In this document: positions 22,349 through 30,280 of the stretch, piece after piece
Layout of the letters: each line of letters opens with the position of its first letter
Numbering within the stretch: position 1 is the first letter of the stretch
Origin: a virus
DNA: 38,616 bases
Virus record (IMG/VR): IMGVR_UViG_3300030060_003958
Location: 1-38,616 of that record
Reading direction: 5' to 3' (one strand)
The notes under the pieces: model-generated
The model's input: only the letters and a program-made list of their open reading frames with translations
Database searches by the model: none
Told to the model about the DNA's origin: nothing
Position numbers and translations under genes: made by a program

Positions 22349-22482
22349 TACTCGTCCTCCATTATATGATTTCTGTAGTCCTCCATCTGACTGATGGCTT
22401 CTTTCTCATAGTCCTGTAACTCCCTAGTAGGGTGTGCCTTAGCTAGCTCCAGAACCCAATCCAATGCTTCTATGTTTTTCAT
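22348..22482 (-). CDS. Small acidic hypothetical protein
   Basis: The 44-residue ORF starts behind an excellent GAGGAGGAGG. It overlaps the upstream gene by 4 nt (ATGA) and the downstream gene by 1 nt, so it is embedded in a run of coupled cistrons. The sequence MKNIEALDWVLELAKAHPTR continues as an acidic helix ending MEDE. No family is recognised. The ribosome site and perfect coupling make it very likely to be translated. Confidence 0.6.
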   Translation of the reverse strand: MKNIEALDWVLELAKAHPTRELQDYEKEAISQMEDYRNHIMEDE

Positions 22483-22757
22483 CTCCTCCTCCTCTTGAAT
22501 TTTGTTTCTTCTGCTTTCTCAGTGTGTCTAGTAAGTAAGTCCATCAAAGACTCGGCTTCCTCCCATGTGTCAAACGGCCCCCAGCTTTTAACAAACGGCG
22601 GCGGGCTACTCTTCAGCAACCTTGGCCCAGCGGGATTGCCACTAACTGTTACCACACGATACTTGTAGTAGTCAGGCACATCTTGTTCCATAAACTTCAC
22701 TTGCATGGGTTCAACTCGGTAGGGCATAACCTGTGATATTTGACTAGTATCTTTCAT
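22479..22757 (-). CDS. Hypothetical protein with basic C-terminus
   Basis: The 92-residue protein follows the strong ribosome site GAGGAGG. The core has strands YYKYRVVTVSGNPAGPRLLK and a helix GPFDTWEEAESLMDLLTRHT, resembling small phage proteins in which a Trp-x-Glu-Glu helix follows two strands. It ends KFKRRRR, encoded by AGG codons that double as the next gene's ribosome site. The function is unknown. It is the first gene after the GC-rich hairpin at 22816-22855. Confidence 0.5.
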   Translation of the reverse strand: MKDTSQISQVMPYRVEPMQVKFMEQDVPDYYKYRVVTVSGNPAGPRLLKSSPPPFVKSWGPFDTWEEAESLMDLLTRHTEKAEETKFKRRRR

Positions 22758-22815
22758 TTGATTAACCTCCTCTCAGTCATTACAACTCTCACGACTCCTC
22801 GCTCGTAACGTCAAA

Positions 22816-22855
22816 GGAGGGGCAGGGAAATTAGGCATCAGCCCCCTGCCCCTCC
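22816..22855 (-). terminator. GC-rich hairpin, terminator-like, downstream of the DUF932 gene
   Basis: Twelve perfectly paired bases, GGAGGGGCAGGG and CCCTGCCCCTCC, enclose a 16-nt loop. On the minus strand, the direction of the surrounding genes, the hairpin is followed only by TTTG, so it would be a weak or partial terminator, or an mRNA-stabilising end for the DUF932 transcript. The plus strand is followed by ATTTCTTTT. Confidence 0.5.
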
Positions 22856-22862
22856 ATTTCTT

Positions 22863-25093: not shown

Positions 25094-25340
25094 ACGTTTC
25101 CTTTGGTTACTTGTTTGGTTTGAAATTGTCTCCTGCCCGATTAGATACCTGCATTTTTTTATTTGAAAGGAGTCGCAGGACGGACAGGAGCGCGAGATTG
25201 AGAGAGCATATAAGGTTTGTTTCAAGATGCGCCAATGACAAAGGGTAAAACCTAAACCCTCTAGACAGCATATCTACGGTTCTCCCGTAGCATCATTCCC
25301 TTACATGCTCAAAGCTCCTTACACTATATAGATATATAAT

Positions 25341-25420
25341 CTATTCTATTCTATTCTATTCTATTCTATTCTATTCTCTTGTGAGTATTGTGGAGATGTC
25401 TGGAGATAACTGGAGACAGT
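25341..25420. repeat. Dispersed element copy A: (CTATT)7 tract plus three TGGAGA iterons
   Basis: Seven perfect CTATT units (25341-25375) are followed by TGTGAGTATT (25380-25389) and then TGGAGATGTC, TGGAGATAAC and TGGAGACAGT, an exact 10-bp period (25391-25420). The same order of parts recurs at 30208-30280. An AT tract beside helically phased iterons resembles a replication origin or a multi-site operator. It overlaps the 3' end of the coiled-coil gene at 25361-25651, whose last residues and stop are encoded by it. Confidence 0.7.
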
Positions 25421-25654: not shown

Positions 25655-25852
25655 TTAGTCCTCCAATTCTTTTGTGAATAGGTCATCATCATAACAATAA
25701 TAATAATGATCCTTTTCAATGATGTTCCACATATACAACCACCATTTATTGTTTGAGATAAACGGTGTTTCGTGTCCGCCGCAACCAATCTTCCACGGGT
25801 GGTCGAATCCTTTGTCCCAATTTTTCGGCCAAAGATCTTTCTTGTCTTTCAT
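25655..25852 (-). CDS. Trp/Tyr-rich small protein
   Basis: The 65-residue product follows GGAGGACTAA and abuts the next gene. It is unusually aromatic: KKDLWPKNWDKGFDHPWKIG, then NKWWLYMWNIIEKDHYYYCY, then acidic DDDLFTKELED. It is not a membrane helix because charges are interspersed. Short acidic and aromatic early proteins are often inhibitors of host enzymes, but nothing here identifies a target. No family is recognised. Confidence 0.5.
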   Translation of the reverse strand: MKDKKDLWPKNWDKGFDHPWKIGCGGHETPFISNNKWWLYMWNIIEKDHYYYCYDDDLFTKELED

Positions 25853-26077
25853 TTAGTCCTCCTTAAATAATTGGAATTGTCCCTCCATTAAGTCCTTTTC
25901 CTTCTCACTGAGGGGTTCTTCTGAACTGTATCTTAGGTTGATGAACTGCTCTATATTATCTATGCGTTCACCTAAGCTTCTATACATCTTAACGCTACAC
26001 CTGCTTGATGATTGCAGATTCTTCTCCAGCACCTGAATCTTGCATAGTAGCTCGGTTATGTGCTGATCTTGGCTCAT
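25853..26077 (-). CDS. Small coiled-coil protein
   Basis: The 74-residue protein starts at an ATG overlapping the upstream stop (ATGA) with AGGAG 9 nt before it. Residues 5-50 are helical with heptads (ITELLCKIQVLEKNLQSSSR, then SLGERIDNIEQFINLRY) and the C-terminus is an acidic helix. The next gene follows directly. No family is recognised. It may partner the membrane peptide encoded upstream, with which it is translationally coupled. Confidence 0.5.
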   Translation of the reverse strand: MSQDQHITELLCKIQVLEKNLQSSSRCSVKMYRSLGERIDNIEQFINLRYSSEEPLSEKEKDLMEGQFQLFKED

Positions 26078-26229
26078 TTGAATGCTCCTATAATGATCAG
26101 GATTGTGCAGACAACTAGCATTAGAGTGAAACAGGCTGCTGCTACCATGCCTTGCGTCTCCTTCTCTATTCTGGCTTCATTGCTCTGCTTGATTTCTTCT
26201 TTAATCTTCTCAAGTCTCTCTATACTCAC
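26074..26229 (-). CDS. Small single-span membrane protein
   Basis: The 51-residue product from a GTG at 26229 has AAGGAGGATAATCCC in front. An in-frame ATG at 26247 gives 57 residues but has no ribosome site. An N-terminal charged helix (SIERLEKIKEEIKQSNEARI) is followed by one transmembrane segment (AAACFTLMLVVCTILIIIG). The stop overlaps the next start (ATGA). It is the first gene downstream of the structured RNA and terminator, so its expression, and that of genes further left, should depend on read-through. A membrane role in superinfection exclusion or lysis control is possible but unproven. Confidence 0.6.
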   Translation of the reverse strand: MSIERLEKIKEEIKQSNEARIEKETQGMVAAACFTLMLVVCTILIIIGAFK

Positions 26230-26253: not shown

Positions 26254-26300
26254 TGCAATAAAAAGAGAGAGCCGAGGATGTTACTCCCCGACCCTCTCTT
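26254..26300 (-). terminator. Rho-independent terminator inside the early operon
   Basis: On the minus strand a 15-bp stem (26300-26286 with 26277-26263, including two G-U-type mismatched positions) and an 8-nt loop are followed immediately by TTTTTATT. This is a textbook intrinsic terminator for leftward transcription. It lies 15 nt after the structured RNA and about 25 nt before the GTG of the small membrane protein, so it divides the early block. Confidence 0.8.
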
Positions 26301-26315
26301 AGTTTTCTATTTAGA

Positions 26316-26438
26316 CAAGCCTTACGGGGTCATGGCGGTATTCCGGCTACACCTCGTCAGGTAATCTGCCTTGGGTTCCTTCCGCTCGCCCACTCCCTGC
26401 CATCATTCTGACGGATTGGGGAGACTAGGTAAGGCTTG
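26316..26438 (-). ncRNA. Structured RNA candidate, 123 nt, upstream of the terminator
   Basis: A perfect 10-bp stem (CAAGCCTTAC with GTAAGGCTTG) closes the element. Inside, CGUCAG (26413-26408) pairs with CUGACG (26360-26355), UGGG (26392-26389) with CCCA (26375-26372), and two further complementary pairs (CUCCC/GGGAG, AUGGC/GCCAU) would form pseudoknots or alternative folds. There is no ORF. Read on the minus strand, the apical part carries GGAAGGAA then CCCAAGGCAGAU, and later GGUGUAGCCGG, reminiscent of the apical region of bacterial SRP (4.5S) RNA, though the conserved AGCA loop is missing. It begins 7 nt after the stop of the upstream gene and runs into the terminator, like a riboswitch, antitermination element or 3'-UTR small RNA. 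Confidence 0.65.
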
Positions 26439-26444
26439 AATGAA

Positions 26445-27224
26445 TTAGTTCTGCTGATTGATTTGAATCAGTCCTTCGGCAGCGAGACGCTCCAGTTCAG
26501 CCGATGAGTATTCAGTTCCCTGAATGTCGAACGACTTGGCTGGTGCTGCTCCCTTGCGTGGCTTGACTAACGTCTGAACCATCGAGCCCTTCGTTACCTT
26601 CGTGGTGACTGTGCGGCCACCCTCGGCAATGAAGTCCTCTCTAAGTTCGCCGTGTTGTCCTTCTAGCTCAGGCATTAACTCGATGCAGCGATGTGCTAGA
26701 TTGAAGAATGCTTCACGTTCCTTAGATGAGAACAGCGTTTTGCCAGCCTTATTCCAGACCTGCTTTGGCTGTCCTGTCTTGGGGTCAATGACTTGATTCT
26801 TGTTCTTGTCCAGCAAGTCAACCAGTTCAGCTACGTTTCCGTCTGCGTCTGGAGTGATCTTGCGGTGTTCCAAGTCCATGATCTTAGCAGCATTGCGGTA
26901 GTTGTTAGGGATTAACTTAACCTCTTTAACCGCTTCAGCTTGGCTCTCTGGAGTTGGATCAGCTATCCATTCTGCACCCTTAGACGCAAGAATATCTAGC
27001 TTCATCTTGTGGTCAGGATTGTGCCACTTGTAAGTGACCTCGCGCATGACTACATTGTTTATCTTTGCACCATTCAGAGCCTTAGTTAAGGTGTCCTTTT
27101 CTAGACCACGAAGTGATGCAGTGTGTAAACCTAAGCCATCGCCGCTCGCCTCACCATTGCTATTTAGCTTGGGATCGAAGAACAACTCTGCCTTACGGAC
27201 TGATTTCTTAGTTACTTTTTCCAT
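26445..27224 (-). CDS. Hypothetical early protein, possibly abundant
   Basis: The 259-residue soluble protein starts MEKVTKKSVRKAELFFDPKL. It is mixed alpha/beta with many charged residues. A middle helix SSKEREAFFNLAHRCIELMP is followed by GELREDFIAEGGRTVTTKVT and a Lys/Pro linker before the C-terminal SAELERLAAEGLIQINQQN. The ribosome site is GAGAG. No family is recognised. It is the second gene of the early block and is followed by the structured RNA and terminator, so it and the first gene can be expressed separately from the rest. This suggests a product needed early and in quantity. Confidence 0.55.
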   Translation of the reverse strand: MEKVTKKSVRKAELFFDPKLNSNGEASGDGLGLHTASLRGLEKDTLTKALNGAKINNVVMREVTYKWHNPDHKMKLDILASKGAEWIADPTPESQAEAVKEVKLIPNNYRNAAKIMDLEHRKITPDADGNVAELVDLLDKNKNQVIDPKTGQPKQVWNKAGKTLFSSKEREAFFNLAHRCIELMPELEGQHGELREDFIAEGGRTVTTKVTKGSMVQTLVKPRKGAAPAKSFDIQGTEYSSAELERLAAEGLIQINQQN

Positions 27225-27292: not shown

Positions 27293-27315
27293 ACCTCTCA
27301 TCTGGATCACTGACC
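27293..27315. repeat. 23-bp inverted repeat, left arm
   Basis: This arm is the reverse complement of 27667-27689 at 20 of 23 positions. All three differences become G-U wobble pairs in the leftward transcript but A-C mismatches in a rightward transcript. It lies in the gap between the first and second early genes. Confidence 0.75.
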
Positions 27316-27666: not shown

Positions 27667-27689
27667 GGCCAGTGACCCAGATGAGAGGC
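27667..27689. repeat. 23-bp inverted repeat, right arm
   Basis: This is the partner of 27293-27315. It lies about 30 nt upstream of the first early gene's start codon, in the predicted 5' leader of the leftward transcript. With the left arm it would make a continuous 23-bp RNA duplex around that cistron. Confidence 0.75.
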
Positions 27690-29924: not shown

Positions 29925-30202
29925 TGGGCGTAAGGACACATCAGTTTAGTACGGGTAAGTTTGACATACACATACAGGACATAGACGGGCTGTGCTGCGA
30001 TTCGGATAACCCGCCGAAGGAGAAGGAGAAGTCCATAACTATAAGCCCCAAACTCAAGGGGCGGTACAGGCTGGAGGTATTGATACATGAATGCCTACAC
30101 GCAGAGTACCCGTCTATAGATAAATGCACCGAGGAGGAATGGGTTGATACTGCTGCTGCTAACATTTCTAAGCTTCTCTGGAGACTAAACTATAGAGGAT
30201 AA
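29924..30202 (+). CDS. Small zinc metallopeptidase-like protein
   Basis: The 92-residue protein overlaps the terminase stop (TAATG). The helix LEVLIHECLHAEYPS contains a complete HExxH (His55-Glu56-x2-His59), the zinc and catalytic core of SprT/ImmA-type mini-peptidases. It is preceded by strands KFDIHIQDIDGL and KSITISPKL. A downstream Glu/Asp in EEEWVDTAAANI may be the third ligand. Similar small genes occur near terminases of marine phages. Substrates are unknown; prohead processing or a defence/anti-defence function are both possible. The stop is followed by the dispersed iteron element. Confidence 0.6.
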   Translation: MGVRTHQFSTGKFDIHIQDIDGLCCDSDNPPKEKEKSITISPKLKGRYRLEVLIHECLHAEYPSIDKCTEEEWVDTAAANISKLLWRLNYRG

Positions 30203-30207
30203 TATAA

Positions 30208-30280
30208 TCTAATTTACTCTAATCTATTCTATTATATTCTAGTGTGAGTATTTTGGAGAACCTCGGAGAAAGTGGAGAAA
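30208..30280. repeat. Dispersed element copy B: AT tract plus three GGAGA iterons
   Basis: This is a degenerate TCTAT/TCTAA tract with TATTC-like units, then the identical decamer TGTGAGTATT (30243-30252), then TGGAGA, CGGAGA and TGGAGA at 10- and 9-bp spacing (30254-30278). The order and orientation match copy A at 25341-25420. It lies in a 267-nt non-coding stretch (30203-30469) of the late block. Confidence 0.7.

Follow-up and report, generated by a model that had tools for sequence, protein, structure and literature searches.

A strong intrinsic terminator behind the gene of a 259-aa protein forms a conserved control point in a diverse group of phages, and an optional non-coding cassette of 134 bp occupies the same spot in the virus studied here and in one close relative. 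As best explanation of the locus we propose a conserved terminator together with this optional cassette, which, if it has a role, most likely acts as a 3'UTR RNA; we give this reading about an even chance. The conserved control point can now be set apart from the RNA cassette.

The window, which is the whole stretch of DNA that was analyzed, is a virus record of 38,616 bases. On its minus strand, the 259-aa gene (26445..27224; identified by its open reading frame and homologues) ends with a TAA stop codon and carries in its 3'UTR a structured non-coding RNA segment of 123 nt (26316..26438). A spacer of 15 nt separates this segment from the terminator hairpin (26263..26300) and its U-rich tail (26255..26262), behind which follows the gene of a single-span membrane protein of about 51 aa (26074..26229). 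The start of this gene, GTG at 26229, is preceded by the ribosome-binding site AAGGAGG and aligns with the ATG of the relatives. In all these points the initial annotation was accurate, as sequence and coordinates, the perfect 10-bp closing stem of the RNA, the spacer, the terminator and the gene start check out. Neither tRNA nor tmRNA was detected in the window. All homologues of the 259-aa protein that were found come from related phage contigs, neither PHROGs nor Pfam has a matching family, and its predicted structure (mean pLDDT 61) was too weak for use.

Two further elements were noted. The 22-nt sequence GGYCAGTGAYCCAGATGAGAGG is present in inverted orientation at 27294-27315 and 27667-27688, on both sides of a 102-aa gene, so that the copies precede the 259-aa gene and the gene of the terminase small subunit. 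It also occurs in L002, L003, L005 (the other end of the L004 contig) and L020, no such inverted pair arose in shuffled sequences, and the pair is a candidate for a divergent promoter or operator. A compound motif is found twice in the window (25340-25416 and 30200-30280) and is kept in the distant L031, L036, L064, L066 and L069. It consists of a (TCTAT)n pentamer tract, behind which mostly come GTGAGTATT and, at intervals of about 10 nt, three TGGAGA-like units, a composition suggestive of a replication origin or of a regulatory site specific to the phage.

The terminator has a GC-rich stem of 16 pairs with a 6-nt loop, followed by the U-rich tail, as expected for an intrinsic terminator. 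A strong intrinsic terminator was found at the same position, directly after the 259-aa homologue, in every relative with readable sequence, even where this homologue is only 25-39% identical; in L064, which a scripted scan had missed, it was seen by folding the record. In L003, a compensatory double change from G-C to A-U affects positions 26286 and 26277, which are paired in the stem (their sum, 52563, equals that of the two ends of the stem, 26300 and 26263). The stretch from the terminator to the following gene contains no promoter-like site. The terminator would end most transcripts of the 259-aa gene, while some polymerases would pass into the leftward operon; such partial readthrough is plausible as a trait of the whole group that is independent of the RNA. 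The earlier claim that the leftward genes depend on escape from the terminator is credible across the family, but the RNA plays no part in it. Elsewhere in the leftward operon, a 105-nt gap contains a 15-bp inverted repeat (22813-22858) that folds into a very stable hairpin with about 12 uninterrupted, G-C-rich pairs; the T run that follows is weak. A variant of the terminator was observed in L069 (3552-3690), with an additional hairpin of about 45 nt at its apex.

Among the close relatives L002, L003 and L004, which share the upstream gene or parts of it at 97-98% identity, the RNA was found in L002 only, a contig 97% identical over this region. In L003 and L004 the flanks (about 96-98% identical) join directly, and the BLAST junctions together with the distance from stop codon to stem delimit a presence/absence segment at 26309..26448 on the minus strand. 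The absence is precise, with a net difference of 134 bp: the stop codon is separated from the terminator stem by 144 nt in the window and by about 10 nt in L003 and L004. A core of 128 nt (26315-26442) lies between the imperfect direct repeats CTAATT (26443-26448) and CTAAAT (26309-26314), one copy of which is left in L003 and L004. Such a pattern could arise in two ways, by an insertion that duplicated a few bases or by the loss of DNA lying between short repeats. Since the more distant relatives, except L061 and L062, also have short distances between stop codon and terminator (11-40 nt; 10-40 nt in most relatives overall), insertion is mildly favoured, with the long version as the probable derived state.

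The two exceptions belong to another lineage and carry a different segment of 171 nt between the homologous gene and the terminator (L062: 3754-3927). Its sequence is unrelated to the RNA, its fold is not clearly better than that of shuffled sequences, and it has no match in Rfam. Two small open reading frames of the window, one of 65 aa (25655-25852) and one of 39 aa (near 22361-22483), are likewise cleanly missing from some relatives. Turnover of small cassettes is usual here, and the RNA cassette behaves in the same way.

The RNA is predicted to form a three-way junction, composed of the closing stem, a two-part hairpin and a long irregular hairpin. Its minimum free energy of -44.9 kcal/mol (z -2.64) was reached by only one of 200 shuffled sequences, and the copy in L002 folds even better (-49.5 kcal/mol, z -3.91; 0 of 200). 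The closing stem pairs CAAGCCTTAC with GTAAGGCTTG over 10 perfect base pairs (26429-26438 and 26316-26325). Taken alone, such a repeat means little, because the window contains six perfect 10-bp inverted repeats with a spacing of 80-150 nt and shuffled genomes contain 0 to 6. Here, the presence/absence segment extends beyond the repeats by 4 nt on one side and 1 nt on the other, and a stem of this type within 6 nt of both ends occurred in 2 of 20,000 shuffles. The folded unit coincides with the unit that was gained or lost.

Over their 123 nt, the two copies of the RNA are distinguished by four substitutions and a one-base insertion. About nine substitutions would be expected from the fourfold sites of the neighbouring genes (7.1%), a difference that is not significant (Poisson P ~0.07), so there is no clear constraint on the cassette. 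All four substitutions fall on bases that are unpaired in the centroid structure, with a probability of about 0.02 as estimated from 47 unpaired positions among the 123, and the changes in L002 lead to a more stable fold. Substitution pattern and stability faintly suggest a structural RNA, in a comparison of two nearly identical copies.

An exact-pattern search of IMG/VR, which by design misses diverged copies, recovered L002 as the only homologue, and a scan of the same database for the pattern of the inverted ends gave nothing but chance pairs apart from L002. No homologue of the RNA was detected by blastn in collections of phages, plasmids and E. coli, and a covariance model run on 37 loci, 30 phage records and 299 Pseudomonadota genomes returned only L002. 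The search for phage homologues suggested earlier thus yielded one copy and no further one. In Rfam, nothing in the window reached the gathering score, and the matches around the RNA site up to an E-value of 10 were due to chance; the proposed cmscan check, RF00169 included, assigned the RNA to no known family and to none of the SRP families. In the literature that was searched, neither a phage mimic of SRP RNA nor a comparable cassette was found to be described.

The first reading of the locus had raised the possibility of a phage SRP-RNA mimic, and the local alignment of the RNA to E. coli ffs is indeed roughly colinear and outscores about 19,996 of 20,000 dinucleotide shuffles. A mimic or relic of 4.5S RNA is nevertheless barely credible. 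The hallmark of SRP RNA is a GGAA tetraloop with a conserved asymmetric loop (GGAAGG.AGCAGCC). In the predicted fold, the GGAAGG of the RNA lies outside any tetraloop, and the invariant GCAG is missing. Up to an E-value of 10, the RF00169 model found nothing in the record, but it matched 13 of 14 control genomes, and the aligned stretch belongs to a part of the E. coli RNA that is variable among bacteria and specific to enterics. When 21 other gammaproteobacterial SRP RNAs were aligned to the RNA, 20 of them scored within the range of shuffles, and none of 369 sampled gammaproteobacterial genomes contained the motif in its E. coli form. Moreover, the comparison with SRP RNA was chosen after the resemblance had been noticed. 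Since a genuine descendant would be expected to retain the invariant part above all, we read the likeness as an after-the-fact coincidence, and the suggested mimic is not upheld. Genome matches to an SRP-like motif lacking GCAG were also considered and turned out to be unrelated chance sequences. A riboswitch or attenuator, in which folding of the RNA decides on terminator formation, is suggested by a closed, aptamer-like fold immediately ahead of terminator and gene and, in a truncated transcript, by a weak pairing of the 5' arm of the terminator with the upstream cassette. This pairing amounted to 0.12 once half of the 3' arm had been made and then to 0.00, with the fold of the cassette intact, and it is weaker in L002. 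In both copies, folding of the growing transcript showed that the finished terminator wins completely and leaves the cassette undisturbed, and no mutually exclusive antiterminator fold was found. Together with the lack of a match to known aptamer families in Rfam and the presence of the RNA in two copies only, not conserved among close relatives, this makes such a switch highly unlikely. An RNA of the put type suppresses termination by binding RNA polymerase, and the position of the cassette, transcribed directly before the terminator of an early-type operon, would suit such a cis-acting element driving polymerase through the terminator. Its probability is slim, however: L003, L004 and the wider family lack the RNA and keep both the terminator and the downstream genes, and the phage collection contained no DNA match. 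HK022 put is a ~70-nt RNA with two stem-loops, lies near early promoters and acts over kilobases (PMC9378689), as opposed to one closing stem in 123 nt here. Because the terminator outcompetes other pairings and relatives without the RNA keep terminator and downstream genes, control of either type is improbable; among the layouts initially listed, the 3'UTR RNA before a real terminator agrees with anatomy and comparison, while the riboswitch and the put-like element do not agree with L003, L004 and the folding. A coding function is very unlikely. The longest open stretches of the RNA, 19 and 23 codons, are uninterrupted in L002 as well, and most of their length is free of substitutions; frames of this length are expected by chance, though, and no ribosome site lies at a usable distance. 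The one-base indel and the missing spaced ribosome site argue against coding, in line with the earlier statement that the RNA contains no open reading frame.

The weightiest alternative is a neutral or selfish insertion, either MITE-like or a product of illegitimate recombination, in which the hairpin results from the inverted ends and has no function as RNA; we consider it doubtful, but it retains a substantial share of the probability. It is favoured by the presence/absence pattern with inverted 10-bp ends and a 6-nt imperfect direct repeat (CTAATT/CTAAAT) at the junction, by the lack of significant constraint and by the restriction to a single site, with no homologues beyond L002. Typical IS elements and MITEs have flush ends, however, whereas the inverted repeats are offset from both ends of the segment; the same pattern would result from a deletion. 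In addition, neither a second copy nor a transposase was found, and the internal fold is better than that of shuffles and is kept in L002. Because of this fold, the placement directly before the terminator and the substitution pattern, we slightly prefer a 3'UTR RNA to a neutral cassette. A more far-reaching version, a mobile structured-RNA cassette that inserts between phage stop codons and terminators and uses promoter and terminator of the recipient mRNA to produce a trans-acting, terminator-tailed sRNA, has in our view only a small probability.

For the preferred 3'UTR RNA, we infer the following sequence of events. The cassette sits between stop codon and terminator and is acquired or lost whole. 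Where present, it would be transcribed into the 3'UTR and fold into a closed RNA with a three-way junction. Processing might then release a stable, terminator-tailed RNA, which could act in trans as a phage sRNA; alternatively, the structure could shield the 3' end of the mRNA. Predicted pairing of the RNA to phage gene starts was not convincing, as the best prediction was equalled by 3 of 60 shuffles. Should the cassette give rise to a stable RNA, its natural presence in some strains and absence from others offers a ready-made comparison. If it does not, the locus is an example of the turnover of non-coding cassettes beside small genes in phage operons.

Compared with known systems, the RNA shares with bacterial small SRP RNA (RF00169) the short stretches GGAAGGAA and CCAAGGCAGAT of E. 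coli 4.5S RNA, but it differs in its predicted fold, in the absent GCAG internal loop and in having no match to the model. Like HK022 put, it is a structured cis RNA near a terminator in a phage operon; unlike put, it forms a three-way junction, lies behind at least one gene and is absent from relatives with the same terminator. Inverted terminal repeats, presence/absence and a short direct repeat at the junction recall MITEs and other small inverted-repeat insertions, from which the cassette is distinguished by its single copy, the lack of a parent transposase and ends that are not flush with the direct repeats. sRNAs derived from 3'UTRs have been described, including the phage-linked CisR (PMC13250501), and phage sRNAs have been reviewed (PMC12197685). 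In contrast to these, the RNA described here is predicted from sequence and is optional among close relatives; like them, it follows a stop codon and precedes an intrinsic terminator, at which it would end.
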